Assembly: GCA_002794785.1 (NCBI GenBank)
Contig: NBBA01000006.1
Location: forward strand, 992,001 to 1,056,000
DNA length: 64,000 nucleotides
From: Coniferiporia sulphurascens
Taxonomy: Eukaryota; Basidiomycota; Agaricomycetes; Hymenochaetales; Hymenochaetaceae
Reading direction: 5' to 3'
The notes under the pieces were generated by a model, which saw nothing but the letters and a program-made list of their open reading frames with translations, was not told the DNA's origin and did no database searches. Position 1 is the stretch's first letter. Every line of letters begins with the position of its first letter. Shown one piece after another: positions 2,628-63,008 of this stretch. The translations under genes and the position numbers were made by a program.

Positions 2628-3954
2628 CATCCCTTCTTGTCCTCTTACCACCACCATCTCTGGTTTTCACTGGGGGTCATCTCGGGGTTCGTCGCAGCAA
2701 CCCATGCTCTGGTCTGGTATTCTACTGGGTCGACATGAGAGAAGGTTCCCGACTGTGCACCTTTTATAAAGGAGCGCTGCTCACTGGTCGCCGAGGCGCT
2801 GTAGCGGCGTCATCTGATGGCGCGAAAGGGGCTCACACCCACCAGGGGGTTCGCAACCCGTTGTTAACATTGCATTGGGGGGGGATGGCTCAGTGAGTAC
2901 CAAGATCCTCTCTCACATCTGCCATGCTCTCTTGGGGCATGGTGCTCGGCTGGTCCGCCTCTCGGCAGCGCAAGGGGTGCATGCCTGCCAGTCGGGGGGG
3001 GACACGATGTTAACGTCCCCACACCCACGTGGGGGGGGGTAACTCTCTGCCCTTCAGTGGTCGGCTTCGGTTGGGAGACCTCAGGTTTGGGGAAACTCGG
3101 ATCTGACCTTCGGGTCAGGACTTAAAATCCTGGGGCTGCATTGTCCCTGGCATGACAAACCATAAAAACTGCCACCCCAAATCCCAAAAGGGTCTCTTGA
3201 TGACGGCACTAGTTGCTATAAGGAGATAGGGGCTTCATAACACATGGCATTGTGGTAAGAACCAGCCAACATGAAAGCGACAGGCCACCATGGGCCTCTT
3301 GGGGGGATAACGCTGGGGCTCACCTAGCAATCACAGGAAGTCCCTGGTAGCTGGCCCTCTCCCATCGAAGTGGGAAGGACGCTGGTAACCCTCGAGAGGT
3401 GGTTAGTCTGAGCGGACTCCCTGGCGGCTGTAACAAGTGCTGGGGTCCAAGTGAGGGCAACATGTCAACTCCGGTATGCCGCGGATCCAGAAGCGGGCCT
3501 TGTGCCTGAGTATTCCCCTTCGGGGCTCTGAAGCATGTGCCGGGGAACAGGAAACTCCAGGGGGGCCTAGGAAACCCCTCCATTATGGAGCAAGCTGTAG
3601 CGGTGGGGGATAGTTCCCTCCACTGGCTCCAGAGCACTAAATCTGGCGTGGGTGCACATAGGAGTAAGTCCTATTGCATGCTTAAGTTGATTCCCAGAAA
3701 CAAGCGGCACTCTACAATGGAAAGTGGGGTAAGGGGGGGAATGTGTAGGGTAGGGGGGGCACCCAATGGGTGGGGCAGTGCCTACAGTGCCACAACCCCC
3801 ACTCAGAATGTCTCCCTGGTGCGGTATGCCCTTCCCAATCCAGCGCGTTGTAGAGGACAGCATGTCGGGTGTAAGTCCTACTGGTCAGGCTTCTATGTCA
3901 CAAGGAAGGTGCACATGTAGTGGGGCCCTGCAAGGGCGCTCTTTAATTCTGGCC
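2628..3954 (+). repeat. Module M in C1, non-coding, about 1.33 kb
   Basis: It starts with CATCCCTTCTTG (a one-base variant of CATCCTTCTTG) and ends with TTAATTCTGGCC. No long ORF is conserved between copies. The sequence is G-rich with many short GC hairpins, for example CCCCTTCGGGG near 3507, and it carries long G runs. Other copies are at 26006, 30114, 43857, 55321 and 60517, with partial copies at 13494 and 25489 (inverted). The first 35 bases resemble the LINE-A 5' end. It could be a structured non-coding RNA captured by the LINE machinery. No known RNA family is recognised. Confidence 0.85.
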
Positions 3955-4148
3955 TCTTGGACCGGACCTCAGGAGCCATCCGGCTGGCATTTGCCACCAT
4001 GGACCTAGACGGCCACCCCACTGACGAGGATATGGACCTGGACCTCCTACAGGAATACATGTGTTGTATGCTCGGACCTCGAACCCAGGACTTGGACCTA
4101 GCCCTTTTGGAGCTCTCAGGTACGCTCCCTCATTTTCCTTCTGATTAA
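3955..4148 (+). pseudogene. LINE-A ORF2 C-terminal tail inside C1
   Basis: This encodes only the last 60 or so residues of ORF2: the acidic TDEDMDLDLL block and the LLELSGTLP terminus, ending at a TAA at 4146-4148. It follows the M junction directly and has no start codon of its own. It is passenger sequence of the truncated LINE cDNA, not a separate gene. Confidence 0.85.
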
Positions 4149-4468
4149 CACCTGCCTTTCAAATTCCTATGAATACACACTGGCCAGCACTCTCACCTCC
4201 CCTTTTCCCATTCTAAGCTTCCTACTTTAACCTGCCCTCATCAGCTTGGTTTGTTCATAGCAATATGTATTCCTCCCTCTTGGCTTCATTCATTCCACTA
4301 AATAGGGACTCTTCACACTCTGGCACCCTTAGGGGAGCAGAGACCCCACCCAGTTTTGTGTGATGTGCAATGACGGGTGCCTCCATTGTTATGTAGTTAG
4401 AGCCCCCCCTTCGGGGGAGCAGCTTGTAATTATGTAATACTGCAGGAATAATTAAAAAAAAAAAAAAA

Positions 4469-5102
4469 CACTCTCATGGAGCACTGGTCCCTCTCACTCA
4501 CCCACCCACTTGCCTTGACAGCCGACAAGTACCTGGCCATCAACGGCATCCCATCCCACTGACCACACAAGCTGCTCACACAGTTGGTTGACCACCCTCA
4601 CCACAAACTCTCTGCAGTCGCCCAGGTCCTCTGCCATGCTGGTCCCTATGGGGGATACTGGCTGAGCTTTGACTCAGCCTACCAGCACCGGCATGGCCTG
4701 ATCTCACACTGCAGGTGGCACAACCACCCCCCCTAGCTGGCCCAGTCGACCGCCCACATCTTGGGTGGGTGTCACACATTCCGACCTTGGATCCGCAAGG
4801 TCTGGCCCCCCTGTGACCCACTCCCAACCCACCACACTGAGTGGGCCGACGAAAACCACCTCCAGGTTCTGCGCCACTGGCTTAAGCTGACAGGACACAT
4901 GAACTGCCTCTCCAACCATACCTCTGCCACTATTCACCTGGCCTTCACCGCAATGGAGCTGGAGGGACACCCCACCAATGAAGATATGGACCTGGACCTC
5001 CTCAGGGATTACATGAGTCATATGCTTGGACCCCGAACCCTGGACCCAGACCCAGCTCTCTTGGAGCTTTCAGGTGTGCTTCCTCCCTTTTCCTCTGTCT
5101 AG
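4469..5102 (+). pseudogene. LINE-A ORF2, end of RNase H and C-terminal domain (copy 1)
   Basis: This continues the ORF2 frame of 208-2627 after the C1 insertion. Stops are at 4560 (TGA, CGA in sisters) and near 4735 (TAG for a Trp codon). The C-terminal domain has a Cys/His-rich stretch, with HCRWHNHPP and an AHILGGC-like block, that resembles the zinc-binding region found after RT or RNase H in many LINEs. An acidic TNEDMDLDLL segment follows. The ORF ends with TAG at 5100-5102. Confidence 0.88.
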
Positions 5103-5414
5103 TGCCTGCCCTTTGGACTCCCCATCATATGTCCTGGCCGGTGCTCTCACCCTCCCTTTCCGATTCTAAACTACCCCATTTGCCTGCTCTCATCCGTTTG
5201 GCTGTGCCATAGCGAAATGTATTCCTCCCTCTTTCTGCTTCTCTCATACTAATAGGGGCCCCCCACACCTTGGCACCCTTCGGGGAGCAGGGCCCCCACC
5301 CAGTTTTGTGCATTGTGCGATGACAGGTGCCTCTGTTGTTATGTAGTTAGGGCCCCCCCTTCGGGGGAGCAGCTTGTAATTATGTAATACTGCAGGAATA
5401 ATAAAATTTTAAAA
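5103..5414 (+). other. LINE-A 3' UTR, terminal hairpin and tail (copy 1)
   Basis: No coding potential is seen. The UTR has a GGCACCCTTCGGGGAGCAG element near 5272 and then the terminal GC hairpin at 5350-5370 (C run, TTC, G run). TTGTAATTATGTAATACTG and an A/T tail follow. The same order occurs in every LINE-A copy. The hairpin is the natural candidate for the RT recognition site in target-primed reverse transcription (inference). Confidence 0.85.
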
Positions 5415-5630
5415 GACTCTCTGACAGCAATAGGCCTCTTTTGCACATGGCCCTCAGCTTCAGGGGCCCAACTCCTCCCCCTTTGGAAGGTGGGGGTTGG
5501 GACCCTCCTTGACTCCTTCCTGAACCTGACCATTCATTTCCAGTGGTGCCCGGGCCATGAGGCCATCCCTGGAAACGAATGGGTGGACTCCGAGGCGAAG
5601 TTAGCTACTCAGCTTCCCCTGTCTACCCTT

Positions 5631-6366
5631 TTTTTTTAATTTTAAAAAAAAATTATTCCTGCAGTATTACATAATTACAAGCTGCCCCCCCAAAGGGGGG
5701 GCCCTAACTACATAACAACAGAGGTGCCTGTCATCGCACAATGCATGAAACTGGGCAGGGACCCTGCTCCCTGAAGGGTGCCAAGGTGGGAAGGGCCCCT
5801 ATTTAAAAGAGGACGATGGGAAAGGGAGAGGAATACATATCGCTATGACAAAACCAAGTGGATGAGGGCAGGTAATGGGGGTAACTTAGAATTGGAAAGG
5901 GAGGGCGAGAGCACTGGCCAGGACATGTGCAGGGGAGTCTGAAAGGTGGTCACAGAGTGGAGGAAAGGGGAGGAAGCGCACCTGAGAGCTCCAAGAGAGC
6001 CGGGTCCGGGTCCTGGGAGCGGGGTCCAAGCATACGACTCATGTAATCCCGGAGGAGGTCCAAGTCCATATCTTCATCGGTCGGGTGTCCCTCCAACTCC
6101 ATCGCGGCGAAGGCCAAGCGGATGGTGGCAGAGGTGCGGTTGGAGAGGCGGTTCATGTGTCCTGTCAGCTTAAGCCAGCGATGCAGAGCCTGAAGGCGGT
6201 TTTCATCGGCCCACTCAGTGTGGTGGGTTGGAAGAGGGTCATGGGGGGCCAGACCTTATGGATCCATGGCCGGAAAGTACGGCAGCCGCCCAGGATGTGG
6301 GCGGTGGATTGAGCGGGCCAGGGGGGGTGGTTGTGCCATCTGCGGTGCGAGATCAGACCATGCCTG
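5631..6366 (-). mobile_element. Antisense LINE-A 3' fragment inserted in LINE-B
   Basis: On the minus strand this is the last 0.7 kb of LINE-A: the C-terminal Cys/His domain, the acidic block, the 3' UTR, the hairpin (5684-5705) and an oligo(A) tail (T-rich at 5631-5655). The perfect 15-bp duplication CCCCTGTCTACCCTT on both sides proves retrotransposition into LINE-B. It is severely 5'-truncated and has no functional ORF. Confidence 0.92.
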
Positions 6367-6381
6367 CCCCTGTCTACCCTT

Positions 6382-7050: not shown

Positions 7051-7109
7051 CCATCCTTCTTGACCAGTAACCACCACCATCGACTAGTGCAGGCAGCTAA
7101 AACTCCCCC
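7051..7109 (+). promoter_or_regulatory. LINE-A 5' UTR and presumed internal promoter
   Basis: The 58 bases before the ORF1 ATG begin CCATCCTTCTTGACCAG and include ACCACCACCATC. The same start occurs at 14376, which defines the true 5' end of the family. Module M begins with the same CATCCTTCTTG and also has TACCACCACCATC about 17 bases in. A promoter or initiator role is inferred from its fixed position only. Confidence 0.6.
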
Positions 7110-9177
7110 ATGTCAAACCCTAGTGACTACCAGAATGCTCTACATTGTACTCAACAACCCCTCCCGCCACCCTCCTCGGCCAGCAATGTGGCCAACCAGG
7201 CAGCCAGGGCCACCGCCAACTGGGTGGCCGCCGGTGCCAATGCAACCACCCTTGTTCAAGACGTGGCCGCCCCCACCACCCCCAACAGAGAACCCCTCTC
7301 CGGCTTCCCACCAATGACCTCCTCCCCAGATGTATTGGCACCCTCCCCAGCCCTCAACGACTCCCAGCTGATATCGGCCTACGACTTCACCGCCCAAGCG
7401 TGCAATGAAGCGAGGCAAGCATCCCAAGCAGGCTCTCCAGCCGCCTCGGTAGGGTCCATCCATGGATCCAATGAATTCGGCGAAATGGCCCCAGAAATGG
7501 TGGTCGACCCCCACACCCCCCCGCAACAGGTGGGAGGTGCAAGCCTCGGGCAGAAGCGCTCCTCCGCCGCCATGTCGCCCCTCACCCCAAGAGGACCCCC
7601 TACCCAACAAAGGCACAAACCCCACACCTCAGGGTTCATGTACTCCCTATCGCGTGCCCTGGAAGACTTTGACAAGGAAACAGCGGATGCCTCCATCACC
7701 AACATCGACATCAAGGCAGCACAGTTTGTCAGCGATCTCCTCTGGAATGTCCAAACCATGCTGTCCAACATTGCGCAAGAAAGGAAAGACCCCCAACACA
7801 TCATCTACTGCAACACAGTAATGGCCTACAACTTTGCAAGGGAGGGGATGGAAATCATCCTCCCAGAACCCTTTTCCCCAGCTCGCCCCCCCCAAAGGGC
7901 CCCAGCCACCACTGGGACCCCTGGCACCACCCCCGTGACCCCAGAAATGAGGGTGCTGACAGATGCAGTCAAGCGCCTGACTACTGACGTAGCTTCTATC
8001 TCATGTCAGATGGCTTCCATCAGCTCTAGGCCCACCCAACATCAACAGCAACAACAACAACAACAGCAACTGGCCCCCCAAGCCGCCATCCAGGCCACCC
8101 CCACCTCCTTTGCCCAAGTGGCTGCAGCAGTGGTCCCCCCAACAACCGCCAACCCATCTCCGGTAGCCCCGGCAGCCGGAACAGTCATCAAACCAGCACA
8201 GAAGAAGAAGAAGCACCAACGTAAGGTGCCCCCCCCCCCACAATGTACACCAAGGACCCAACCTTGGTCCTCACCCCAACGGTCAGCATACAGGCCGAAA
8301 ATCAGAAATCAGCAATGGCCCTGACCAAGACATCCCGTGAGTTCCTCGCCTCTCTCCCCACCGCAGACCAAGTCCCGGTCCTCTCTGCTTCATATAATGT
8401 AAAGGGGAACATCATGACCACATTCGCAACGTGACCATCCTCAGCTAACCTGACCACAGAAATGATCATTGATTGTCACTCCACAGCATACACATCCCAT
8501 ATGTGCACAGAGTGCATCACAGCGGGAATTAACATCCCCATCACATTCTCCCTAACCCCATCCAGAGTCTGTCCCCAGTCTGCCCTCCACATCTCCATGG
8601 TGCCCTGCAAGGACTTTTTGTTTGGCCAGAATGGACACACCATATCCAAGAAGGCTCTTATGGCCGAAATCCAGCACAACCCGACACTCCGCAACCTCGA
8701 CTTTGTCATCACCCCCCACTTCACCACCACCGAGGACCACCTGCCAATGCTCAACAGGTGCCCAGTGGTCTTCTCATTCATCAACCCCAATGGCTCCATA
8801 TGTGAATGCCTCCTCAAGAGGCCCCGAGTCTGGATGTTCGGATCCGCCCTCCGACTCTTGGTCCCACCTGTCTGCCCCACTCTCACACAATGTGAGTGGT
8901 GCCGGGCCTCGGCCATGGAACCAAGGGCTGCCGTGCCCAACCTTGTTGCGTGGACTGCGTGGGTGCTCACTTAACCCACAATCACCACAAATTGTGCACC
9001 CACTGCACAACAGATGCAGTGCCCGAAGGCGACACATGCCCCCACCCCTGCCTCTGCAACAACTGCAAGGGCGACCACCCAGCCACCCTGCCAGCATGCC
9101 CCAAGAAGAGGCGATACCACCAAATCGAAGAGGCCCTTGCCACCAACCCCACTGACGATCAGATGGAGGAAATATGA
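7110..9177 (+). pseudogene. LINE-A ORF1, gag-like nucleic-acid-binding protein
   Basis: The ORF starts at ATG 7110 (MSNPSDYQ), conserved at 14435. The N-terminal two thirds is Pro/Ala/Gln-rich with a conserved block from GFMYSLSRALEDFD to the AREG motif. A polyglutamine stretch follows near 8040-8070. The C-terminus carries zinc knuckles: CEWC...GHGTKGC (split by a frameshift near 8905), a CCVDC cluster, and CNNCKGDHPATLPAC near 9055-9100. Such ORF1 proteins package LINE RNA into RNPs. The damage is a frameshift near 8240, TGA at 8432, and a frameshift near 8905. The terminal TGA overlaps the ORF2 ATG. Confidence 0.88.
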
Positions 9178-12100
9178 TAGAGAAGCTCTCTGTCCTGCAG
9201 TGGAACACCGCACGCTCATTAGTGGCGATACATTCCCTAATCCCTGTCCTTACAACTGACCCATCCCCCCCACACCTAATCCTTATCCAGGAACCCCCCT
9301 GGTACCAAATAGGACTGCAACCCTCGCTCACTGACCCAGCTGGTACCCCGGTTATCAATGTCCCCACTATCCCAGGCTACGTACCTGTTCTGCCACCCGA
9401 GACTCGACCTCAAGTAGTCACGTACATATCCCAGGCCCTCCCCCCCACCTCATGGTCAATTCTTGGAGCCGCGTCCCACGGCACTGATGTGCTGACAGTG
9501 GAGGTACGATCACAACTCACCATCTGGGTGTGCAACTACTACGGCATGCACCCCCCGGATCGAGAGAACGCCTCCCCCAGTACCCAGGTGAGTCCTTTCT
9601 TTTCTCACTACCCTCGGTGCTAGCCACCACTCTACTCGTGGTGGGCGACTTCAACTGTCGCCACCACATGTGGTCCAAACTCGCAGCCGCATGGCGAGAT
9701 GACTTGGGGGCACAACCCCTCGATGACTTCTTCCATGGGCATGGCCTGGCGCCTGCCCATATACCCGACTCTGACTCACGGCCCAATGGCAATCACCATC
9801 AGTGCCCTATTGACATGATATGGGCCCCACCCTCAGTCAACCCCAACTCTATTATAGATCCGGCTACCTCCGACCCCTCACCTCTGTCCGACCATGCCAT
9901 CTTGCACTGGTCCCTGCCGTTTCGGCCCCCCCCTCCTGTCCTAAAGACACGCCAGTTGCTACCAGCTGACAGGGAGGAATGGACCGACATAGCCTTCCCG
10001 TTACTCGTCGAAGCCTTCCGCCTCCCAGGGCTCGACACCCAAGCCTTGGACATCAAAGCAAAGGCAGTCATCAACGCAATGGTCACTGCCCTCCAGCCGT
10101 TCACCCATCTCTCCAAGCCGTCAAAAGCGGAAGTCCCATGGTGGTCCCCCCACTGCAAGACCCTCCTATCCACCATCTCAACGGCAACCACCCCACTCCA
10201 GCAGTCCTCAGCCCGACGCACCTTCAAAAGAGGCGTCAGGACAGCCAAATGGCAGTTCTATGCCGATCAGGCAGTGGAAGCGGACACATCCAACATCTGG
10301 AACTGGGCCAAGCGAGGCCTCGGAAACCAACCAACACCCATCCCCTCGCTCAAGCGGCGAGATGGTTCCTTCACCCAGACGGATGATGAAAAAGGTGAGC
10401 TCTTTCGAGAAACTTTCTTCATGCCCCCCCCACCCCAGGCAGTGGTCGAGACCATGCCACCACCAACCCAACCAGCTGCCCCACCTATCCTCCTTACAGA
10501 GCTTACAGGGGCACTGGCCGACACATCCAACCTGTCAGTGCCGGGCCTCTTGGGAATAGGCTACTGCCCCTTAAAATGGGTGGTGGACACCTACCCCGAT
10601 GAGATACTTACACTTTTCAACAACTGCCTGTGCTTGGGACACCACCCAGAGTGCTGGCGGGCGGCAAAAGTCATAATGCTCAGGAAGCCAAACAAGAAGG
10701 ACCCATTCTCACCATGTTCATACCAGCCCATTACCCTCAAGGAGACCCTAGGGAAACTCCTCGAAAAGATCATAGCTAACTGGCTCCAGTTCCTCACCAA
10801 CACAAGAGGCTGGTTGCCACCTAACCAGTATGGGGGGTGCCAAGGCCACTCGGTCTACGACGCTGCCCAACACCTTCTACAGATTGCAGAGCATGCCCAC
10901 TTGGAGGGCCTTGTTTGTTCGGTCCTAGCAGTCAACATCCAGGGCTTCTTTGACTCAGTACACCCCCAACTCCTCCACCAATGACTGTTGGATCTTGGTT
11001 GTGCCCCAGATATGGCCAACTGGTGCTTATCCTTCATGATGGACCGGCAGGTCGCTATCACCTTCGACAGCACCACCCTCCCTACCTCTCCCAAACCCGA
11101 CTATGGCACCCCCCAGGGATCGCCAGTTTCTCCCATCTTGTCAACAATATTCACGGGGGTGGTCCTCCGGCACTTTCACCAAGCCGGCACCACTGCCCTG
11201 GCATACGTTGACGACCACTTACTTATATGTGTAGGACCCTCAGTGGCATCCAACTGCTGTGCCCTGGCCCGCACCTACCACCAACTCAACACCCTCTTCG
11301 GCACAATCGGGTTCAACATTGAAGCCACCAAGACGGAGTGTCTCCACTTCCACCCCCCTTGGTGACGCAACAGCTATGATGGCTGGGACACTGGCAGTGT
11401 CCAGGTCGACCCTGACACCCTGGTCCGCCCCTCAATCCCCCTTAGGTGGTTGGGGATATGGTGGGACCCAGGCCTTTCATTCAAGCCCCATGTCGAGCAC
11501 ATGCGCTCCAAGGGGCTCTCCACACTTGCCGCACTCCGCATTCTAGGCAATACTCAACGCGGAATCTTGGCCCTCCTCCTCCACTGCTTGTACACATCCT
11601 GCATCCATTCTGTCCTTTCTTGGGGCGCACCGGTCTGGTATCACAGCCGCTGCCAAAAAACCCTGGTAAACCACCTGCAGGCCATCCAAAACATGGCCTG
11701 TCACTGGATTCTCGGTGTCTTCAAGGGCGCCTCCCCCTACTCCACAAATTTTCTTTGCTCTGTTCCCCCCCTCTCTTTCTATTTTGAGTATATAAAGACT
11801 ACCCATTCCCTGCATCTGTGGCACACCCCTCACTCCATTGGCCGAAAATTATTTAAAAGCATAGCTAATAGACCCTTCTCCCTTTCTCTGCAGGTCCAAG
11901 CCCCCGGGTTCAACAGGTCCCTGCATACATGCATCCCCCATGGACGGATCCTCTGGCCTTCACACGAGGCCGTGTCCATTTCACCACCCCCGTCACTCTG
12001 GTTAGCGCTGACACCCGGAAATCCTTCATAACCACTGTGTGCCAACTAGGCCTCTCCCCTCACATCCAGGTATTCACCAATGGCTCCTGCATTGACAATA

Positions 12101-13170
12101 AGTTGGGCTCAGCCATCTGTGCCATGCTTGGCCACACCCGACTCCGGTCCCACAGACTGGAGTCCCCCACCTGTGCCACAGCCACAGACGCCGAGGAATT
12201 CTCCCTCGCCATGGCCCCGGGCTGGGTGGCTCGCCACCTCCCAATGCAACTGTGTGTCGCATTGGATATCTTCTTCTTGTCCGATTCGCTGACCGCTCTC
12301 CACCTCTTCCACACCTGGGCTGCCGCTCCCAGCACTCACCTCCTACACATCTGGAAAGTGGGTGTGGAGACTCTGCTGGACTCGTACCCCCAGCTCACCA
12401 TTCATTTCATATGGTGCCCTGGACACTCAGACATCCCCGGGAATGAATGGGCTGACACAGAAGCGAAGCTGGCTATGGAGCTCCCACCATCCGACCTTAA
12501 ACCTTCCATATCCGCACTAAAAGAGATTGCAGTACGCACACTCATGGAGCGCTGGACAATCTTGCTAGCCCGCCCCCTTGCCTCAACCACTGACAAATAC
12601 TTGGCAGTACACAGCCTCCCATCACACAGACCTTGAAAGCTACTCATGCATTCAGTTGACCACCCACACAGCGAGCTTGCTGCAGTGGCGCAAGTCCTCT
12701 GCCACGCCAGTCCCTACAGGGGTTACTGGCTGAGTTTTGACTCAACCTACTGCCACAGGCATGGCTTGATCTCACACTGCAGGTGGCACAACCACCCCCC
12801 CTGGCCCACACAGTCGACTGCCCACATCCTCGGCAGCTGTAGTACCTTCCACCCATGGATACGACGCATGTGGCCACCTCGGGACCCTCTCCTGGTCCAC
12901 CACTCAGAGTGGGCCGACGAAAACCACCTCCTGGTTTTGTGCTGCTGGCTAAAGCTGACAGGGCACCTTAACCGCCTTTCTGACCATGCTGCAGGAACCA
13001 TCCGGCTAGCCTTTGCTACGATGGACCTCGACGGCCACCCAACAGATGAGGATATGGACCTGGACCTCCTACAGGATTACATGCATCGTATGCTCAGACC
13101 CCAAACTCGGAACTCGGACCCAGCCCTTTTAGAGCTATCAGGTACACTCCCTCCCTTCCCACTCGAATAA
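9174..13170 (+). pseudogene. LINE-A ORF2: endonuclease, reverse transcriptase, RNase H
   Basis: The length is about 1,330 codons. The N-terminal APE-type endonuclease shows VLQWNTARS, LILIQEPPWY, GDFNCRH and SDH. RT follows with KPNKKDP, NIQGFFDSV (motif A, first Asp now Asn), GTPQGSPVSP and YVDD. RNase H has FTNGS (catalytic Asp now Asn), ATDAEEF, LSDSLTAL and HSDIPGNEWAD. The C-terminus is Cys/His-rich and then acidic. The ATG at 9174 overlaps the ORF1 stop in ATGA. The damage is frameshifts near 9580 and 11900, and TGA at 10982, 11363 and 12634; the last two match CGA in sister copies. The protein would nick target DNA and copy LINE RNA from the nick. It is inactive as it stands. Confidence 0.92.
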
Positions 13171-13493
13171 GTGCCTGCCTTTCGGACTCCCACAAGATAC
13201 ATCCCAGCCGGCACTCTCACCCACCCTTTCCAATTCTAAGCTTCTTACCCTAACCTGCCCACACGTGGTTTGTTCATAGCAATATGTATTCCTCCATCAT
13301 CTGTTTCTTACTAAATAGGGGCTCTCCACACTTCGGCACCCCCCTGGGGAGCAGAGCCCCTGCCCAGTTTTGTGCAATGCACAATGATGGGTGCCTCTGT
13401 TGTTATGTAGTTAGAGCCCCCCCTTTGGGGGGGCAGCTTGTAATTATGTAATACTGCAGGAATAATAATAATAAAAAATAATAAAAATAAAAA
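13171..13493 (+). other. LINE-A 3' UTR, hairpin and A-rich tail (full-length copy)
   Basis: No ORF is present. The UTR shows CACCCCCCTGGGGAGCAG near 13340. The terminal hairpin is at 13417-13437, a seven-base C run and G run around a TTT loop. The TACTGCAGGAATAAT block and a mixed AATAAT/AAAAT tail to 13493 follow. The order matches all other copies. Confidence 0.85.
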
Positions 13494-14375: not shown

Positions 14376-14434
14376 CCATCCTTCTTGACCAGTAACCACC
14401 ACCATCGACTAGTGCGGGCAGCTAAAACTCCCCC

Positions 14435-15642: not shown

Positions 15643-15644
15643 CT

Positions 15645-26005: not shown

Positions 26006-27830
26006 TGCATCCTTCTTGTCCTCTTACCACCACCATCTCTGGATTTCACCAGGGGTCATCTGGGGGTTCATCACAGCAACCTGTGCTCTGGTCTGGTATT
26101 CTACTGGGTCGACACGAGAGAAGGCGCTCCAACTGCCCACCTGTATAGGGAGGGCTGCTGGCTGGTCGCCGAGGCGCTGTAGCGGCATCGCTGGATGGTG
26201 GGAAACGGGCGCTTGCATTCGCCGGCTGGCATGAAGACCTGTCGTTAACATCTTCATGGGGGGGGTAACTCGGTGAGGATGATCCTTCTTCACGTCTGCT
26301 GTGTTCTCTTGGGGCATGGTGCTTGCTGGTCCGCCTTTCGGTGGTGCAAGGGGCGCATGCCTGCCAGTCGGGGGGGGACATGACGTTAATGTCCCCACAC
26401 CCACGCGGGGGGGGGGGGGGGCAACCCTCTGCCCTTCAGCAGTCGGCTTTGGTTGGGAGACCTCGGGTTTGGGGAGACTCGGATCTGACCTTTGGGTCGG
26501 GACTTAAAATCCTGGGGCCGCGTTGTCCCTGGCATGACAAACCATAAAAACTGCTGCCCCAAACCCCAAAAGGGTCTCTGATGACATCACTAGTTGATAT
26601 AAGGAGATAGGGGCTTCATAACACATGGCGTTGCGGTAAGAACCAGCCGACGTGAAAGCGACAGGCCACCATGGGCCTCTTGGGGGAGTAATGCTGGGGC
26701 CCACCCTGCAGTCATGGGAGGTTCTTGGTAGCTGGCCCCACACCATTGTGGTTGGGTGCTGGTACCCCTTGAGAGGTGGTTAGTCTGAGCGGACTCCCTG
26801 GTGGCTGTAACAATCGCTGGGGTCCAAGCAAGGGCAACACGTCAACTCCGGTATGCCGCAGATCCAGAAGCAGGCCTTGTGCCTGAGTATTCCCCTTTGG
26901 GGCTCTGAAGCGTGTGCTGGGGAACAGGAAACTCCGGGGGGGCCTAGGAAACCCCTCCATCATGGAGTGAGCTGTAGCAGTGGGGGATAGTTCCCTCCAC
27001 TGGCTCCAGAGCACTAAATCTGGCATGGGTGCATGTAGGAGTAAGTCCTATTGCATGCTTAAGTTGATTCCCAGAAACTAGTGGCACTCTACAGTGGAAA
27101 GCAGGGTAAGGGGGGGAATGTGTAGGGTAGGGGGGGCACCCAATGGGTGGGGTAGTGCCTATGGCACCATGACCCCTACTCAGAATGTCTCCCTGGCGCG
27201 GCACGCCCTTCCCAATCCAGCGCGCCATAGAGGACAGCATGTTGGGTATAAGTCCTACTGGTCAGGCATCTATGTCACAAGGAAGGTGCATGCATAGTGG
27301 GGTCCCGCAAGGGTGCCCTTTAATTCTGGCCATCTGCTTGGCCTATGCTGTGATGGAGTTGGAAGGACACTCGACCGATGAAGATATGGACTTGGACCTC
27401 CTCTGGGACTACATGAGTCGTATGCTTGGACCCCGTTCCCAGGACCCAGACCCAGCTCTCTTGGAGCTCTCAGGTGCGCTTCCTCCCCTTTCCTCTACTC
27501 AGTGATCGCCTTTCGGACTCTCCCACGTATGTCCCGGCCGGCACTCTCGCCCTCCCTTTCCAATTCTAAGTTACCCCCATTACCTGCCCTCATCTGCTTG
27601 GTTTTGTCATAGCGATATGTATTCCTCTCCCCTTCCCATCATTCCCTTTTTAAATAGGGGCCCTTCCCACCTTGGCACCCTTCAGGGAGCAGGGCCCCCA
27701 CCCAGTTTCATGTGCTGTGTGATGATGGGCGCCTCTGTTGTTATGTAGTTAGGGCCCCCCCTTTGGGGGGGCAGCTTGTAATTATGTAATACTGCAGGAA
27801 TAATAAAATAAAAATAAAAATAAAATAAAA
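26006..27830 (+). mobile_element. Composite C2: module M fused to a LINE-A 3' end
   Basis: Module M spans 26006-27331 and ends CTTTAATTCTGGCC. It is followed at once by LINE-A starting ATCTGCTTGGCC, which encodes only the final 57 residues (to 27505), then the 3' UTR, hairpin and AAAAT tail. The flanking duplication CTGGCAGCCCTT (25994-26005, 27831-27842) is perfect. The LINE join differs from that in C1, although the M end is the same. Two extra bases (TG) precede CATCCTTCTTG at the 5' end, a common feature of LINE 5' junctions. Confidence 0.9.
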
Positions 27831-32072: not shown

Positions 32073-32749
32073 ACCTAAAGCCCTCCACCTCCGCACTAAA
32101 AGAAGTCGCAGTCCGCACCCTCATGGACAGGTGGACGTTCTCGCTTGCCTGCCCACTGGCCTCAACTGCCAACAAATATCTGGCAGTACATGGCCTCCCT
32201 TCTCAACGACCCAGGAAGCTACTCCTGCACTTGGTCGACCACCCACGCAGCGAGCTATCTGCAGTCGCTCAGGCCCTCTGTCACGCTGGTCCCTACAGGG
32301 GTTACTGGCTGAGCTTCGACTCAGCCTACCGACACAGACACAGCCTTATTTCGCACTGCAGATGGCACAACCATCCCCCCTGGCCCGCGCAGTCGACTGC
32401 CCACATCTTAGGTGGCTATAGCACCTTCCACTCATGGATACAACACATATGGCCACCTCGGGACCCTCTCCCAGTCCACCACTCAGAGTGGGCTGACAAA
32501 AACCGCCTCCCAGTTTTGTGCCATTGGCTTAGGCTGACAGGTCACCTAAACCACCTTTCTGACCGGACCTCTGGGGTCATCCGGCTAGCGTTTGCCGTGA
32601 TGGACCTTGATGGCCACCCAACCGATGAAGATATGGACTTGGACCTCCTAAGGGACTACATGCGTTGTATGCTCGGACCCCGAACCCAGGACTCGGACCC
32701 AGCCCTTTTGGAGCTCTCAGGTACGCCTCCCCCCTTTCCTCTGGTCTAA
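32073..32749 (+). pseudogene. LINE-A ORF2 C-terminal third within C3
   Basis: An open frame from the M junction to TAA at 32747. It covers the end of RNase H (STSALKEVAV-like), the connecting region, the Cys/His block (HCRWHNHPPWPAQSTAHILGG) and the acidic terminus (TDEDMDLDLLRDYM). One Cys of the block is Tyr (GGYSTF). It has no start codon of its own and is passenger sequence. Confidence 0.82.
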
Positions 32750-33368
32750 ATGCCTGCCTTTCGAATTCCAATGAATACGTCCCGGCCAGTGCTCTTGCCA
32801 TCCCCTTTCCACTTCTAAGCTCCTAACTTTACCTGCCCTCATCCACTTGGTCTGCTAGTAGCAATATGTATTCCTCCTTCTCCCTCTTTCCGTACTAAAT
32901 AGGGACTCTTCACACACCGGCACCTTTCAGGGAGCAGAGACCCCACCCAGTTTTGTGTGATGCGCAATGATGGGTGCCTCCATTGTTATGTAGTTAGGGC
33001 CCCCCCTTCGGGGGGGCAGCTTGTAATTATGTAATACTGCAGGAATAAAAATAAAAATAAAAATAAAAATAAATAAAAAAAAGCTAACTGGCTCCAGTTC
33101 CTTGCCAACATGTGGGACTGGCTGCCAAGTGCCTCCATTTCCACCCCCCCCCTGGCGACGCACTGGTTATGATGGCTGGGCCACCGCTGGGGTCCAGGTC
33201 GACCCCAACACCCTGATTCACCCCTCAATCCCATTGCGATGGCTGGGGATTTGGTGGGATCCGGGCCTCTCTTTCAAGCCCCACATTGAGCACATGCACT
33301 CCAAGGGGCTATCTACACTAGCTGCCCTCTGCATCCTGGGCAACACCCAATGCGGTATCTTGGCCCTC

Positions 33369-43856: not shown

Positions 43857-45704
43857 CATCCTTCTTGTCCTCTTACCACCACCATCTCTGGTTTTCACTG
43901 GGGGTTGTCTTGGGGTTTGTCGCAGCAACCCATGCTCTGGTCTGGTATTCTACTGGGTCAACATGAGAGAAGGTTCCCAACTGCACACCTTTTATAAAGG
44001 AGTGCTGCTTGCTGGTTGCCGAGGCGCTGTAGCAGCATCGTCTGATGGCACAAAAGGGGCTCACACCCGCCAGGGGGTATGCAACCTGTTGTTAATGTTG
44101 CAGTGGGGGGGGGGATGGCTCAGTGAGTACCAAGATCCTCTCTCACGTCTGCCATGCTCTCCCAGGGCATGGTGCTCAGCTGGTCCGCCTCTCGGCAGCG
44201 CAAGGGGTGCATGCCTGCCAGTTGGGGGGGGACATGACGTTAACGTCCCCACACCCATGCAGGGGGGGGTAACCCTCTGCCCTTCAGCAGTCGGCTTCGG
44301 TCAGGAGACCTCGGGTTCAGGGAGACTCGGATCTGACCTTCGGGTCGGGACTTAAAATCCTGGGGCCACATTGTCCCTGGCAAGACAAACCATAAAAACT
44401 GCTGCCCCAAATCCTGAAAGGGTCTCTGATGATGGCACTAGTTGCTATAAGGAGATAGGGGCTTCATAACACATGGTGTTGTGGTAAGAACCAGCCGACA
44501 CGAAAGCGACAGGCCACCATGGGCCTTTTTGGGGGGTGTGGCTGGCCCTAGCCCTTTTGAGGGTAGGCGTTGGTGCCCCCCGAGAGGTGGTTAGTCAAGT
44601 GGACTCCCTGGCAACCTCGGAAGAGATAGGCCGGGGTCCAAGCCTCTGGCAACACATCAACTCCGGTATGCCGCGGATCCAGAAGTGGGCCTTGTGCCTG
44701 AGTATTCCCCTTCAGGGCTCTGAAGCGTGTGCCAGGGAACAGGAAACTCTGGGGGGCCTAGGAAACCCCTCCACTATGGAGCGAGCTGTAGCAGTGGGGG
44801 ATAGTTCCCTCCACTGGCTCCAGAGCACTAAATCTGGCATGGGTGCACATAGGAGTAAGTCCTATTGTGTGCTTAAGTTGATTCCCAGAAACGAGCGGCA
44901 CTCTACAAGGGTAAGCAGGGTAAGGGGGGAATGTGTAGGGTAGGGGGGGCACCCAATGGGTGGGGTAGTGCCTGTGGCGCCGCAACCCTCACTCGGAATG
45001 TCTCCCTGGCGCGGCATGCCCTTCCCAATCCAGCGCACCATAGAGGACAGCATGTCGGGTGTAAGTCCTACCGGCCAGGCATCTATGTCATGAGGAAGGT
45101 GCACGCGTAGTGGGGCCCCACAAGGGCGCTCTTTAATTCTGGCCTTCAGGCTCTGTGTCGCTGGCTTAAGCTGACAGGACACATGAACTGCCTCTCCGAC
45201 TGCACCTCTGCCACCATCTGCTTGGCCTTCGCCACAATGGAGTTGGAGGGACACCCAACTGACGAAGATATGGACTTGGACCTCCTCTGGGATTACATGA
45301 GTCGTATGCTTGGACCCCGTTCCCAGGACCTGGACCCGGCTCTCTTGGAGCTTTCAGGTGCACTTCTTCCCCTTTCCTCCACTCTGTGACCGCCTTTCGG
45401 ACTCCCCCATGTTAGTCCCAGCCAGTGCTCTCGCCATCCCTTTCCAATTCTAAGTTACCCCCATTACCTGCCCTCATCCGCTTGGTTTTGTCGTAGCGAT
45501 ATGTACTCCTCTCCCTTTCCCATCATCCTCTTTTAAATAGGGGCCCTTCCCACCTTGGCACCCTTTGGGGAGCAGGGTCCCTGCCCAGTTTCATGCATTG
45601 TGTGATGACAGGTGCCTCCATTGTTATGTAGTTAGGGCCCCCCCTTTGGGGGGGCAGCTTGTAATTATGTAATACTGCAGGAATAATTTAAAAAAAAAAA
45701 AAAA
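43857..45704 (+). mobile_element. Composite C4: module M fused to a LINE-A 3' end
   Basis: M spans 43857-45144 (CATCCTTCTTGTCC to TTAATTCTGGCC). LINE-A follows from TTCAGGCTCTG: the last 80 or so residues of ORF2 (to TGA 45387), 3' UTR, hairpin and oligo(A) to 45704. No duplication is evident, since the left flank is the LINE-A copy 3 Cys/His region and the right flank is an RNase H start. The LINE join lies at yet another LINE position while the M end is constant. Confidence 0.85.
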
Positions 45705-48526: not shown

Positions 48527-48948
48527 GGAAGATGACTGCCTGGTTGTGTAAATTGGTGAGGTGAAGGAGTAGATCAACGGAGGGTGGGTCAGTGTGGCTT
48601 AGCTGGTTTTCCAGTCCCTCTATTTCAAACTCGATTTCAGTGAGGTCCGAGGGTTGGATGAAATCTTCTGGGAAGGTGCGTCGGAGTTGTTCGATGATGT
48701 CCTGACAGGTGGGAGCGGATCCACGGGGTTGATATTCTTGGTGACAAATTTCAACCAGGGGATTCTGGATGGGGAGTGTTGGAGAGAGGTCGGCGGTTGG
48801 CGACAGTGGGATAGCGTATGTGTGGGGTGCGGTGTGTGTGAGCACGGATGGTGGTGGTAAGTGCGCAGACGAAGATGAAAAGACCACTGGGGATGGCGAT
48901 GGCGAGGTACCAGAGGTGGTTGTTGGTGGTGATGTAGGCGGTGGGCAT
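48477..48948 (-). pseudogene. Gyp1 element 2 ORF3, membrane-segment protein
   Basis: ATG 48948 lies 29 bases after the pol stop. It starts MPTAYITTNNHLWYLAIAIP, with the same hydrophobic segment as element 1. A frameshift near 48785 breaks it; the downstream frame encodes LTEIEFEIEGLENQL and ends at 48477 with the stop lost in element 1. It overlaps the ORF4 start by about 50 bases. Confidence 0.6.
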
Positions 48949-48977
48949 AAGAGAGGATGTAGAGTGGATGTAGGAAG

Positions 48978-52325: not shown

Positions 52326-52363
52326 GGTAACAGGAAGACTTAATGTCTGTCTAAGCTTCCTCT

Positions 52364-54974: not shown

Positions 54975-54993
54975 TTTTTTATTTTTATTTTTA

Positions 54994-55030
<37 letters not shown>

Positions 55031-56592
55031 CTGCAGTATTACATAATTATAAGCTGCCCCCCAAAGGGGGGGCCCTAACTACATAACAATGGAGGCGCCT
55101 GTCATTGCGCATTGCACAAAACTGGGCGGGGCTCTGCTCCCCGAAGGGTGCCAAAGTGTGAAGAGCCCCTATTTAGTGAGAAATAAGAGAGAAGGAGGAA
55201 TACATATCGCTATGAACAAACCAGGCAGACAAGGGCAGGTTAAAGTAAGAAGCTTAGAATTGAGAATGGGGAGGTGAGAGTGCCAGCCAAGACGTATCTG
55301 TAGGAATTCAAAAGACGGGCCACCCCTTCTTGTCCTCTTACCACCGCCATCTCGGTTTCACTCTGGGGTGCTCTTGGCAGTATGTCACAGCAACCTGACC
55401 TTGCACTGGGGCTTACACCTTGGTCATTGTATGAGAGAAGGCATCCGACTAACCTTGGTGCGCTGGGGTCATTCATCAGTCGCCATAATGTGGTGGGAAA
55501 CGGGCATGGAGCTCACCAGCTGGCTTGGCAACCTGTCGAAAACATTGCCTCTGGATTGATGACTTGGTGAGGATGATTCTTTCTGGTGTCTGTGCTGTTC
55601 TCTCGGGGTGGCGTGCTCATTGGGCCTGCATTGTATGTGGGCTCGGCAGGGGGGGGACACGACATTAATGTCCTCACAGGGGGGGGGAAACCCCCTGCCT
55701 CGCAGCAGGCGACTTCGGTCAGGAAACCTCAGTTCAAGGCAACCCGGATTGCACCTTTGGGTGCTGAGCACTGCCCTCCTGGGTACCTCGGAGCTCACGT
55801 TGTCCCTAGCATGACAAATCAAAAACTGCTCCCCCAAATTCCCAAAAGGGTCTCTGATGACAGCACCTAGTGCTAAAAGGAGATAGGGGGCTCATAACAC
55901 ATGGCATGGCAGTAAGAACCACCCGATGCCGAAAGGCAACAGGGTACCATGGGCCTCTTGGGTGGGTTGGACCCACTTGGGGTGGTTAGTATCCCTTACT
56001 CCCTGGGATGGCTTTGCCACCAGGGTCGGGTATGCGAGACAGAGATCCTGGTATGATCATGAATCCAGAAGCGGGGGCTGGGGGTTGACTGGGCGCTTGT
56101 CCCATGACCTCGGTTCCAGAGTATTCTGGCTGTAATGGCTGTTTCTGAAGTGCATGCCAGGGCACAGGAAAGGGCCTGCATGGAGTGTGTGTCAGCATCC
56201 CAGCGCACTGAAGTGTAGTGTCTTGGGCCATAGCACTGTGGGAGAGTTCCCCCCAGTGGCTCCAGAGGACTAAATCCTCCATTGGTTTGTGTGGGGGTAA
56301 TTCCCACTATGGGCTTAAGTTGATTCCCAGAAGCGCAGCGGTACTCTACAGGACCTCTATGGTCAGGGAGGGAATGTGTAGGGTAGGGGGGTCATTCCAT
56401 ATGGGTGTAGTAGTGCCTATGGTGCCGTGACCTGCACTTGGGGTGGCCTCCTGGCATGGCACACCTTACCCTAGTGCTCCAATATAGTGCCCATATGTCG
56501 TAGAGGACAGTGGGAGCAGTTTTGGTTGCTGCATATCCCAAGGAAGGTACACGCATTGCTTGAGTCCCACAAGGGTGCTCTTAATTCTGGCC

Positions 56593-58112
56593 AAAAAACC
56601 CTAGTCAACCGACTACAGGCTGTGCAGAACACTGCTTGCTGTTGGATTTTAGGCATCTATAAGGGCATGTCTCCACATTCCACTAATTTCTTATGTTCCA
56701 CCCCCCCTTTCTTCGCTTATTTCGAATATTTAAAGACCACTCACACCTTGCGCCTATGGCACACCCCCCACCATGTAGGGCAGAAAAAGTTTAATCCTAA
56801 TGCTAACACCCCTTTTTCCCTTTCATTTTAGGTCTGCATCCCCCAAGTCCAATGGATCCCAGCGTACACACACCCCCCCTGGATGGACCCCCTCGCCTTT
56901 GGTCAAGGCCAAATCGTCTTCACAGTTTCCAGACAGCCAGTCTCTGTGGACTTGTGTGAAACCTATGTAGCTCAAGCCAGGATTTGCTGCACCAATTCCT
57001 CCCTGCAGGTATTCACTGATGGTTCACACATCAGAAATGCCTCCGGATCAGCCATCTGTGGCATGAAGGGACCAAATTACATCAGATCCCTCGAGCTCAC
57101 CTCCCCCACTTGCGCTACAGCCACAGATGCCGAAGTATTCTCTCTGGCAACTGCCCCAGGCTGGGCCACAAGACACCTCCACCATCTGCTGCCAGATGTC
57201 CAGGAGATCTTTTTCCTCTCAGACTCTCTGATGGCACTCGGCCTCTTTCGCACCTGGCCCTCTGCATTGGGGGCCCAGCTCCTCCCCCTTTGGAAGGCGG
57301 GGGTCAAGACCCTTCTCGACTCGTTCCCAAATTTGACTGTGCATTTCTGATGGTGCCCGGGCCACGAGGACATCCCCAGGAATGAATGGGCAGACTCCAA
57401 GGCGAAGCTAGCAACTGAGCTTCCCCTATCTTCCCTCACCCCCTCTATCTCCGCTCTGAAGGAAGTGGCGACTCACACACTCAGTGAGCGTTGGTCCCTT
57501 CAGCTGGCCCGCCCCCTGGCCTCCACCACTGACAAGTACCTGGCAGTTACTGGGCCCCCCACTCAACAACTGAGAAAGCTAATCACCATCTCAGTCGACC
57601 ACCCCCACTCAGAGCTCACTGCAGTGGTGCAGGTCCTCTGTTGTGCCAGTCCCTATGGGGGCTACTGGCTGAGCTTTGACTCAGCCTACCAGCGCAGACA
57701 TGGCCTGATCTCCCACTGCAGGTGGCACAACCACCCACCCTGGCCGGCGCAGTCAACCTCCCATGTCCTTGGTGGATGCGAAACATTCCAACTGTGGATA
57801 CGACGAGTCTGGCCCAGAAGCGACCCCCTCCCAGTCCACCATACCGAATGGGTGGACAAAAACCACCTCCTGGTCCTAAGGTGCTGGCTACACCTTACCA
57901 GCCACCTCAATTGAATGTCCAACTGCACAGCTGGGGCAATCCACCTAGCCTTTGCAGCCATGGACTTGGATGGACTCCCGACCAATAACAACCTTAACTT
58001 GGACACCCTCCAGGGCTACATGCGTAGGTTGCTCGGATCCAGGACTCAGGACACGGACCCAGCTCTCTTGGAGCTTTCAGGTATGCTCCCACCATTTCCC
58101 TCTGACTCTTGA
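56593..58112 (+). pseudogene. LINE-B ORF2: post-RT region, RNase H, C-terminus (in C5)
   Basis: It starts at the M junction with KKTLVNRL-type sequence. RNase H motifs are FTDGSHI, ATDAEVF, LSDSLMAL and HEDIPRNEWAD. Stops: TAG at 56829 (CAG elsewhere), TGA at 57348 and 57912 (CGA-like). The Cys/His domain (SHCRWHNHPPWPAQ, GGCETFQLW) and LDTLQGYMRR precede TGA at 58110. This is the best reference for the LINE-B 3' half. Confidence 0.86.
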
Positions 58113-58454
58113 CTGCCATTCGGATTCCCCATCAGTTTCTTCTATGGCACTTGCAGCCACTCCTTTCCTCTTCTAAGGGACTCTCCTTTCCTGATCTCGC
58201 TTTTGGCCTGGTTTGGCTTTCTGTAGTCTCAATATGTATGCCTCCCTCTCCCTCCCTCTATTTATCCCTAATAGGGTGTGTAAGTTCACTAGGCCTCCTT
58301 TGGGAGGCACATGCCCCACCCAGTTTCACTCGATGAGCGATGACAGGCACCTCAGTAGTTAGGTAGTTTACAGGTGGCCCCTTCGGGGCTGCAGGTGTAT
58401 TATGTAGCTCAGTAGGAATAATAAAAATAAAAATAAAAATAAAAATAAAAATAA
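58113..58454 (+). other. LINE-B 3' UTR, terminal hairpin and tail
   Basis: It differs from the LINE-A UTR over most of its length, but the end is laid out alike: a GC hairpin GGCCCCTTCGGGGC (58375-58388), then TATTATGTAG, TAGGAATAAT and an AAAAT tail. The hairpin position is the same as in LINE-A with a different stem sequence. Confidence 0.8.
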
Positions 58455-60516: not shown

Positions 60517-63008
60517 CCATCCTTCTTGTCCTCTTACCACCACCATCTCACCTTCGCTCTGGGGTCGTCTCTGGTCAGTCACAGCAACCCATGCCCTGCT
60601 CTGGTATACTACTGGGGTGACATGAGAGAAGGCTATCCGACTGCCCACCTTGATAAGGAGGGCAGCTGGCCGGTCACTGAGGCGCTGTAATGGCGTCGTT
60701 GGATGGCGGGAGATGGGCGCTTGTGTCTGCCGGCTGGCACAGGGACCTGTCGTTAATGTCCTCTTGGGGGGGGAGACTTGGTGAGGATGATCCTCTCTCA
60801 CATCTGTGCTGACCTTCTTGAGGATGGCATGCCTGCTGGTCCACCTCTGGGCAGTGCAAGGGGCATATGCCTGCCAGTTAGGGGGGGGACACGATGTTAA
60901 CGTCCCCACACCCACACAGGGGGGGTAACCCTCTGCCCTTCAGCAGTTGGCTTCGGTCAGGAGACCTCAGGTTCAGGGAGACTCGGATCTGACCTTCGGG
61001 TCAGGACTTAAAATCCTGGGGCTGCATTGTCCCTGGCATGACAAACCATAAAAACTGCTGCCCCAAACCCCAAAAGGGTCTCTGATGACGTCACTAGTTG
61101 ATATAAGGAGATAGGGGCTTCTTAACACATGGCATTGTGGTAAGAACCAGCCGACACGAGAGCGACAGGCCACCATGGGCCTCTTGGGGGAGTAACGCTG
61201 GGGCCCACCCTGCAGTTGTGGGAGGTTCTTGGTAGCTGGCCCCACACCATCAAAGTGGTTGGGTGCTGGTACCCCTTGAGAGGTGGTTAGTCTGAGTGGA
61301 CTCCCTGGCGGCTGTAACAAGTGCTGGGGTCCAAGCGATGGTGACATGTCAACTCCAGTACATTGCGGATCCAGAAGCGGGCCCTGTGCCTGAGTATTCC
61401 CCCTCGGGGCTCTGAAGCATGTGCCAGGGAACAGGAAACTCCGGGGGGGCCTAGGAAACCCCTCCATTATGGAGCAAGCTGTAGTGGTGGGGGATAGTTC
61501 CCTCCACTGGCTCCAGAGCACTAAATCTGGCATGGGTGCATGTAGGAGTAAGTCCTACTGCATGCTTAAGTTGATTCCCAGAAACTAGCGGCACTCTACA
61601 GTGGAAGGCAGGGTAAGGGGGGGAATGTGTAGGGTAGGAGGGGCACCCAATGGGTGGGGTAGTGCCTATGGCGCCGCAACCCCCACTCGGAATGTCTCCC
61701 TGGCACAGCACACCCTTCCCAATCCAGCACACTGTAGAGGACAGCGTGTCGGGTATAAGTCCTACTGGTCAGGCATCTATGTCATGAGGAAGGTGCACAC
61801 ATAGTGGGGTCCCACAAGGGCGCCCTTTAATTCTGGCCACTCCCAGTGCTCACCTCCTACACATCTGGAAAGCGGGTGTGGAGACTCTGCTGGACTCATA
61901 CCCCCAGCTCACCATTCATTTCGTATGGTGCCCCAGACATTCAGACATCCCTGGGAATGAATGGGCTGGCACGGAAGCGAAGCTGGCTACGGAGCTCCCA
62001 CCATCCGACCTTAAACCTTCCATATCCGCACTAAAAGAGATTGCAGTATGCACACTCATGGAGTGCTGGACGATCTCGCTAGCCCACCCCCTTGCCTCAA
62101 CCGCCGACAAATACTTGGCAGTACACGGCCTCCCATCATGCAGACCTCGAAAGCTACTCATGCATTTGGTCGACCACCCACACAGCGAGCTTGCTGCAGT
62201 GGCGCAAGTCCTCTGCTGTGCTGGTCCCTATGGGGGTTACTGGCTGAGTTTTGACTCAACCTACCACTGCAGGCATGGCTTGATCTCACACTGCAGGTGG
62301 CACAACCACCCCCCCTGGCCTGCACAGTTGACCACCCACATCCTTGGCAGCTGTAGTACCTTCCACCCATGGATACGACGCGTGTGGCCACCTTGGGACC
62401 CTCTCCCAGTCCACCACTCAGAGTGGGCTGATGAAAACCACCTCCCAGTTTTGTGCCACTGGCTAAAGCTGACAGGGCACCTTAACTGCCTTTCTGACCG
62501 CACTGCAGGAACCATCCGGCTAGCCTTTGCTACGATGGACCTCAATGGCCACCCAACAGACGAGGATATGGACCTGGACCTCCTACAGGATTACATGCAT
62601 CATATGCTCGGACCCCAAACTCGGAACTCGGACCCAGCCCTTTTAGAGCTATCAGGTACACTCCCTCCCTTCCCACTCGAATAAGTGCCTGCCTTTTGGA
62701 CTCCCACAAGATACATCCCAGCCGGCACTCTCGCCCACCCTTTCCAATTCTAAGCTTCTTACCCTAACCTGCCCACACATGGTTTGTTTGTAGTGATATG
62801 TATTCCTCTGTCATCTGTTTCTTACTAAATAGGGGCTCTCCACACTTTGGCACCCCCCTGGGGAGCAGAGCCCCTGCCCAGTTTTGTGCAATGCGCAATT
62901 ACAGGCGCCTCTGTTGTTATGTAGTTAGGGCCCCCCCTCCAGGGGGGCAGCTTGTAATTATGTAATACTGCAGGAATAATAATAATAATAATCATAATAA
63001 TAATAAAA
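60517..63008 (+). mobile_element. Composite C6: module M fused to LINE-A
   Basis: M spans 60517-61838 (CATCCTTCTTGTCC to TTAATTCTGGCC). LINE-A follows at ACTCCCAGTGC in RNase H and runs 1.17 kb to an AAT-rich tail ending near 63008. The duplication of LINE-A copy 6 is ATGGGGGAGACGGG (60503) and ATGGGGGAGATGGG (63009), with one C/T difference. It is inserted in the opposite orientation to its target LINE. Confidence 0.9.
61839..62684 (+). pseudogene. LINE-A ORF2: late RNase H and C-terminal domain (in C6)
   Basis: The frame is open from the M junction to TAA 62682. It includes HSDIPGNEWAG, where the conserved Asp of NEWAD is Gly, the Cys/His block (HCRWHNHPPWPAQ, HILGSCSTFHPW) and the acidic terminus. 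It closely resembles 12320-13170 of the full-length copy, so both derive from one LINE-A subfamily. It has no initiation codon of its own. Confidence 0.84.

Follow-up and report, generated by a model that had tools for sequence, protein, structure and literature searches.

A non-coding module with a fixed 3' end joined to LINEs at many points in Coniferiporia sulphurascens: template switching as the more likely origin

When one and the same sequence is found fused to many different points of a retrotransposon, how were the joins made? The question is raised by a stretch of 64,000 nucleotides from the basidiomycete Coniferiporia sulphurascens (NCBI GenBank assembly GCA_002794785.1, contig NBBA01000006.1, positions 992,001 to 1,056,000 of the forward strand), the whole of which is called here the window. 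Within it, six composites (C1 to C6) carry a module of 1.2-1.33 kb, M, directly upstream of the 3' part of a long interspersed nuclear element (LINE). The explanation favored here, at a probability of roughly 0.6, is that M is a structured, non-coding RNA that parasitizes the LINE and that the composites arose as reverse transcription repeatedly switched from a LINE RNA template to the 3' end of M RNA.

The 3' end of M, TTAATTCTGG, is fixed. The window contains it exactly six times, always on the plus strand (0.11 occurrences expected; none of 100 shuffles reached six), and M-like sequence lies upstream of each occurrence. On the LINE side, the joins fall at six different positions (Table 1) of a reference LINE, window positions 7051 to 13493, whose own coordinates begin at 7051. 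Thus, the claim of a preliminary description of this DNA, that the same M end is joined to six LINE points, is borne out. Its claim of a constant M 5' end also stands from CCTTCTTGTCC onward, the preceding CAT being altered in C1 and C5. C5 represents a diverged subfamily, M2, that is 64% identical to M1; at least four subfamilies are present, and those other than M1 are 64-78% identical to it, partly over pieces only.

Seven composites are bounded by a target-site duplication of 12-18 bp, whose first copy stands 0-2 bases upstream of CATCC and whose second follows the LINE poly(A): C1/L009, C2/L028 (with one mismatch), L012, L013, L017, L023, and L027, a count that leaves out composites where no duplication was found. 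Because the duplication flanks M, the LINE tail, and the poly(A) together, each such composite is one LINE-type insertion; the three parts were inserted as a unit, as target-primed reverse transcription would do. The start of M is most likely CATCCTTCTTG. In an alignment, 14 chosen M copies share their 5' end and hardly differ between CCTTCTTG and CATC.

The same arrangement is found throughout the 39.3 Mb, 31-contig genome. Two patterns representing the last 20-21 bases of M, searched with up to three mismatches, matched 72 and 90 places (the reversed patterns, 4 and 2). After removal of three isolated three-mismatch places (two from the first pattern and one from the second), 159 M 3' ends remained, all of which were read across the join; by their last bases they belong to M1 (70), M2 (64), M3 (6), and M4 (19). 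In 156 cases the tail aligns in sense to the LINE reference, at 93 distinct positions ranging from 8 to 6283. The other three (L083, L131, and L141) have by eye a LINE-like 3' start that is diverged or interrupted and were not placed. Relative to placed copies, distinct joins number 46 of 70 for M1, 50 of 62 for M2, 6 of 6 for M3, and 5 of 18 for M4. Genome-wide, then, the M 3' end is fixed while the LINE join varies, and no single ancestral junction is common to the composites. Nearly a third of the positions (32/93) are used more than once. Thirteen are common to more than one M subfamily: 5925 to M1 (four times), M2, and M3; 5335 to M1 and M3; and eleven others to M1 and M2. Since different subfamilies reuse the same positions, joins recur independently, and since the LINE tails at these positions mostly differ in sequence, the site itself matters. 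Three pairs of contigs (C14/C26, C16/C28, and C10/C29 in the contig numbering) have the same join with 95-100% identity on both sides; these small contigs are perhaps duplicated or allelic copies.

What distinguishes a site at which M is joined? The LINE bases lost at each join were deduced from the best LINE relative spanning it, and motifs were counted over 95 distinct joins, that is, the 93 positions plus L083 and L131, which were compared with LINE relatives. The three bases lost immediately at the join read YYR (Y, pyrimidine; R, purine) in 63 of the 95 (12.7 expected), compared with 4 and 6 when the frame is shifted by one. Taken singly, -3 is a pyrimidine in 86, -2 is a pyrimidine in 88, and -1 is a purine in 72. 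The most enriched triplet is CCG (17 versus 1.1 expected), followed by its CpG-decay forms CCA (18 versus 3.5) and CTG (12 versus 2.6), and YYR is seen in every subfamily (M1, 34/46; M2, 36/52; M3, 4/6; M4, 3/5). The first LINE base kept is C in 62/95 (33 expected). Read across the join (marked by an arrow), CNG↓C is present in 26 of the 95 (2.1 expected), YG↓C in 34 (3.1 expected), and CNG↓CNG in 5 (0.4 expected). At -2 and -1, CG, CA, and TG together make up 68/94 (18.9 expected), a pattern that fits decay of an ancestral CpG in the LINE copies. Location of the joins in RNA loops was also considered; the unpaired probability at joins, 0.48-0.63 versus 0.49-0.51, is slightly raised but not loop-like, and so speaks only weakly for it. 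The preliminary description had M and the LINE sharing 2-4 bases at several joins, which calls for correction: if M ends at GG, the bases common to M and the lost LINE sequence number zero in 75, one in 81, two once, and three once (n = 158). The shared bases reach three (GCC) only where the CC after GG is assigned to M.

The M side of the join has a distinctive feature of its own. The end of M reads TGG in 157 of the 159 cases and TAG in the other two, and its last six nucleotides pair with an internal hexamer 194-265 nt away from the end, immediately following GTTGATTC. Four fully paired, covarying forms of this closing helix are present: CCAGAA/UUCUGG, CCAUGA/UCGUGG, CCAAGA/UCUUGG, and CCAACA/UGUUGG. 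Among 41 copies with the GTTGATTC anchor, 37 (M1 and M2) have the first form, one forms five of six pairs, two copies of M4 pair fully through different letters, and a single copy of M3 forms five of six pairs in a shifted register. When G.U pairs are allowed, 12 of 14 further M4 copies are also fully paired; L203 has five of six pairs, and in L201 the script did not find the anchor. The fully paired M4 forms are CCAUGA with UCGUGG, UCAUGG, or UUGUGG; CUAUGA/UCGUGG; CCAACA/UGUUGG; and CCAAGA/UCUUGG. The join of M to the LINE therefore coincides precisely with the terminus of a helix that is kept through changes of letters in M1, M2, and M4, though not cleanly in M3. Minimum-energy folding of the M 3' domain alone gives the helix no support (z 0.26); what argues for it is covariation. 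A consensus fold of the 14 chosen copies, computed with no shuffled control, contains 276 pairs, 72 of them with changes on both sides. M4 ends in UCGUGG are followed by A(C/T)A, those in UGUUGG by TTC, and those in UCUUGG by GCC, and M1 and M2 favor C(C); the M4 join sequences reflect either copying as a unit or an end inherited from a parent composite.

M is treated as non-coding, the longest ATG-initiated frames on either strand of four copies being 90-162 amino acids. The earlier statement that M resembles nothing named agrees with an Rfam search, which returned no match at the gathering score in the window and, for M alone, two far below it (E 2.3 and 4.3); membership in a known Rfam family was rejected on this ground. 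Three M ends that appear imprecise (L192 to L194, with M breaking off at 702 or 1217) look by eye, from 80 bases read for each, like LINE insertions into M. In L192 and L193, which are on different contigs, M is broken near its position ~702 by LINE sequence, in sense in one copy and in antisense in the other, and this position is a possible hot spot for insertion.

The LINE partner itself has its own start. The reference copy, with an intact 5' end at 7052 and broken frames, begins with a 5' untranslated region (UTR) of about 58 nt and is preceded by LINE sequence and not by M; a further LINE with a complete 5' end starts at 14377. The first 30 nt of the LINE match the first 30 nt of M at 26 positions, and M is thus not wholly foreign to the LINE. 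Directly upstream of the second start, at 13494-14376, an M2-like sequence ends short of its 3' end, and the LINE looks like an insertion into M. Proteins similar to the 651-amino-acid LINE reverse transcriptase frame are found mainly in Coniferiporia weirii, with 54-79% identity among the matches listed. Genome-wide, 866 LINE 3' ends are present with at most one mismatch. On the contigs numbered C1 and C2, the 3' ends listed cluster in one block each (1.33-1.58 of 4.98 Mb and 1.51-1.73 of 3.02 Mb), which suggests that these blocks are centromeric or pericentromeric. Elsewhere in the window (19418-20530, 48978-51530, 21355-22263, and 47753-48577), frames resemble by eye integrase, reverse transcriptase, and gag-like parts of long terminal repeat retrotransposons.

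Table 1. Positions in the window of the six composites, the reference LINE, and associated features
Feature	Position	Strand	Remarks
Target-site duplication of C1, 5' copy	2614..2627	.	AACACTCTCATGGA
M copy C1	2628..3952	+	Subfamily M1, full length; starts CATCCCTTCTTG just after the duplication
Internal partner of the M 3' hexamer in C1	3694..3699	+	CCAGAA, directly after GTTGATTC
M 3'-terminal hexamer in C1	3947..3952	+	TTCTGG, pairs with 3694-3699
C1 LINE 3' part and poly(A)	3953..4466	+	Reference position 5925
Target-site duplication of C1, 3' copy	4467..4480	.	AACACTCTCATGGA, at end of poly(A)
Reference LINE	7052..13493	+	5' end present, frames broken
LINE open reading frame 1	7110..8324	+	404 codons, no Pfam match
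M copy C2	26008..27329	+	M1; duplication of the composite with one mismatch, two extra bases before CATCC
C2 LINE tail	27330..27825	+	Reference position 5948
M copy C3	30116..32072	+	M1; interrupted by other sequence, pieces 30116-30690 and 31330-32072
C3 LINE tail	32073..33073	+	Reference position 5444
M copy C4	43857..45142	+	M1
C4 LINE tail	45143..45704	+	Reference position 5877
M copy C5	55323..56590	+	M2
C5 LINE tail	56591..58452	+	Reference position 4603
M copy C6	60518..61836	+	M1
C6 LINE tail	61837..63017	+	Reference position 5273

No stand-alone M was found among the 159 M 3' ends, defined by matches to the last 20-21 bases with no more than three mismatches, all of which run into a LINE (156 by alignment and three by eye), nor among the 40 of 337 candidates scored in a search with the whole of M. 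Ten further places matching the end pattern outside the 159 (the three dropped three-mismatch places, six exact TTAATTCTGGCC places, and L001) have no clear M upstream, L214 being marginal. When nine of these were compared with shuffles, eight scored within the shuffled range and L214 scored 0.54 versus a shuffled maximum of 0.51; L001, without a shuffle run, scored 0.52. If there is truly no stand-alone M, then M RNA would have to come from the composites.

How, then, would a composite be made by template switching? The LINE reverse transcriptase would begin target-primed reverse transcription at the poly(A) tail of the LINE RNA and would stop at a preferred site just before YC or CC in the template, stalling before CC picking the site. 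It would then switch to the 3' end of M RNA (...UUCUGG), with help from a match of no more than about one nucleotide (G), so that the join would form during reverse transcription itself. Copying of M to its 5' end (CATCCUUCUUG) would yield an M-LINE composite flanked by a duplication. Transcription of M RNA from composites could in turn rely on the LINE-like 5' terminus, the constant 3' end of the RNA being set by processing or by trimming back to the closing helix.

Several observations weigh against this scheme. Thirteen M copies, sampled by their 3' ends with long upstream sequence (C1 to C6 and L002 to L008), include five (L002, L003, L004, L005, and L007) without a visible M 5' end, perhaps truncated and perhaps rearranged later, and for four of these (L003, L004, L005, and L007) a test for a target-site duplication gave no clear outcome. 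M3 departs from the closing-helix rule in all five copies seen, the four further copies having five of six pairs in the shifted register and, by eye, four of six in the usual one. The YYR motif is present in 15/26 joins whose LINE relatives are at least 90% identical, and in all cases it is read from relatives and not from the true donors. If YYR marks plain stops of the polymerase, LINE truncations that lack M should also carry it, and they do so, read by eye, at 1 of 7 usable ends. (Of 23 automatic matches, 7 were composites and 7 were nested, weak, or spurious by eye; 2 of the remaining 9 were ambiguous and were set aside.) The ends of such truncations may instead be chosen by pairing with the target DNA. 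The low number of distinct M4 joins implies that some composites may copy as units. Finally, a motif that extends across the join, the CNG↓C found in 26/95, could equally be the signature of RNA cleavage.

This last point leads to the strongest competitor of template switching, a possible but less probable route in which the join is made between RNAs. An endonuclease would cut LINE RNA at CYG↓C-like sites, M RNA would be cut or trimmed at its closing helix, an RNA ligase would join M to the 3' LINE fragment, and the LINE machinery would copy the chimera as one template. All three motifs that span the join exceed expectation, and they resemble the sites of the endonuclease Ire1 quoted in PMC6037481 (CNG↓CNGN in Saccharomyces cerevisiae and UG↓C in Schizosaccharomyces pombe). 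The rarity of the motif at M-free truncations fits this route, and ligation by RtcB is one of the two mechanisms named in PMC13174262 for chimeras of U6 and LINE-1. However, the full yeast site, CNG↓CNG, accounts for only 5/95 joins, position -2 is nearly always a pyrimidine, which that site does not require, and the joins lack the unpaired probability expected of a loop. The motif given in PMC2104539 for MINE, a composite of Magnaporthe considered below, also differs (GCC↓A/U). A slightly more doubtful extension would make M a "tail-swapping" parasite with no gene of its own, its RNA being freed from a composite at the closing helix and joined to LINE RNA cut at CYG↓C. Were this true, the tail used for retrotransposition would change at nearly every generation, and MINE might be a second case, which would explain the lack of solo copies of its module, WEIRD. 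Template switching, which the preliminary description also proposed, is supported by the fixed M end, the varying sense joins, the duplications around whole units, the reuse of LINE positions by several M subfamilies, the LINE-side motif, and the closing helix, and is more likely than joining of RNAs, though neither is demonstrated and the evidence does not prove the one over the other.

The remaining alternatives are all improbable. In one, the switch would still take place at the level of complementary DNA, and the join would be picked by docking of the M 3'-terminal UGG on YYR in LINE RNA, a contact of three pairs, and not by stalling. With G.U pairs included, the triplets able to pair with UGG are precisely YYR, the shifted frames are not enriched, and M almost always ends in TGG. 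Set against this are the shortness of the contact, the fact that UGG is already paired inside M, the pyrimidine at -1 in 23/95, and the possibility that CCG, CTG, and CCA together reflect decay of an ancestral CCG. Still less probable is that each composite is an old, fixed unit multiplying as a whole, with joins decaying later. The few M4 joins, the positions used more than once, and the pairs with 95-100% identity on either side of the join (which may reflect duplicated or allelic contigs) would fit, but the numbers of distinct joins in M1, M2, and M3 and the reach of joins from LINE position 8 to 6283 refute it as a general explanation for these subfamilies. Least probable of all is that the LINE has M as its 5' UTR or first exon, the composites being products of splicing or internal deletion: despite the 26/30 shared first nucleotides and the joining of M2 to LINE position 8 in L117, splicing is ruled out because AG precedes the join once in 95 (4.3 expected), and M as the ordinary 5' UTR is rejected as a rule, the LINE start at 7052 being without M and L117 being the only one of 156 joins within the LINE 5' UTR.

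Among known systems, short interspersed nuclear elements (SINEs) and other non-autonomous partners of LINEs are non-coding and are mobilized by LINE proteins. M is likewise non-coding and apparently mobilized by a LINE, but no M copy was found to have its own LINE-like 3' tail; in M1 to M3 the tail mostly varies from copy to copy. Among mammalian LINE-1 chimeras, those with U6, as presented in PMC13174262, have a full-length U6 in sense orientation 5' of a truncated LINE, with target-site duplications, and both template switching by the polymerase and prior RNA ligation are offered there as the origin of LINE chimeras. The acceptor in that case is a host small nuclear RNA, whereas for M no stand-alone gene was found within the limits of the searches.

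The closest parallel is MINE (WEIRD-MGL) of Magnaporthe grisea. According to the available text of PMC2104539, MINE consists of a full-length, non-coding 5' module of ~1.1 kb fused in sense to a 5'-truncated LINE of varying length; its 31 copies have target-site duplications, reused join sites, and the LINE-side motif GCC↓A/U, no solo WEIRD is reported, and template switching is the published model, without microhomology. This is the only fungal case of the kind recognized in the literature covered, and since most subscription papers lie outside that coverage, the absence of others is unproven. M-LINE shares with MINE a fixed non-coding 5' module, varying sense joins, duplications, reused sites, and a LINE-side motif. 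No solo M was found within the limits of the searches. M-LINE differs in scale (159 M ends versus 31 MINEs), in having at least four diverged subfamilies, and in features beyond the description of WEIRD given there, namely the LINE-like 5' end and the covarying 3' helix. The motifs also differ: YYR↓C is found in place of GCC↓A/U, with GCC at -3 to -1 in 0/95 joins and GCC ending at +2 in 18/95 (2.3 expected). Suppose, however, that copying includes the G at -1 and that this G pairs with the last G of M as the enzyme switches. The bases still to be copied would then be C and C/T, and in MINE C and C, so that a stall before CC would fit both systems. M-LINE thus appears to work like MINE, a likeness of anatomy that does not bear on whether M and WEIRD are homologous in sequence. 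With more than 90 distinct joins, a single constant acceptor end, a motif on the LINE side, and acceptor variants that arose naturally, it offers a natural record of chimera formation in which the mechanism is directly testable, and it suggests that a MINE-like lifestyle, without a known stand-alone source gene, occurs beyond the ascomycete Magnaporthe, in a basidiomycete.

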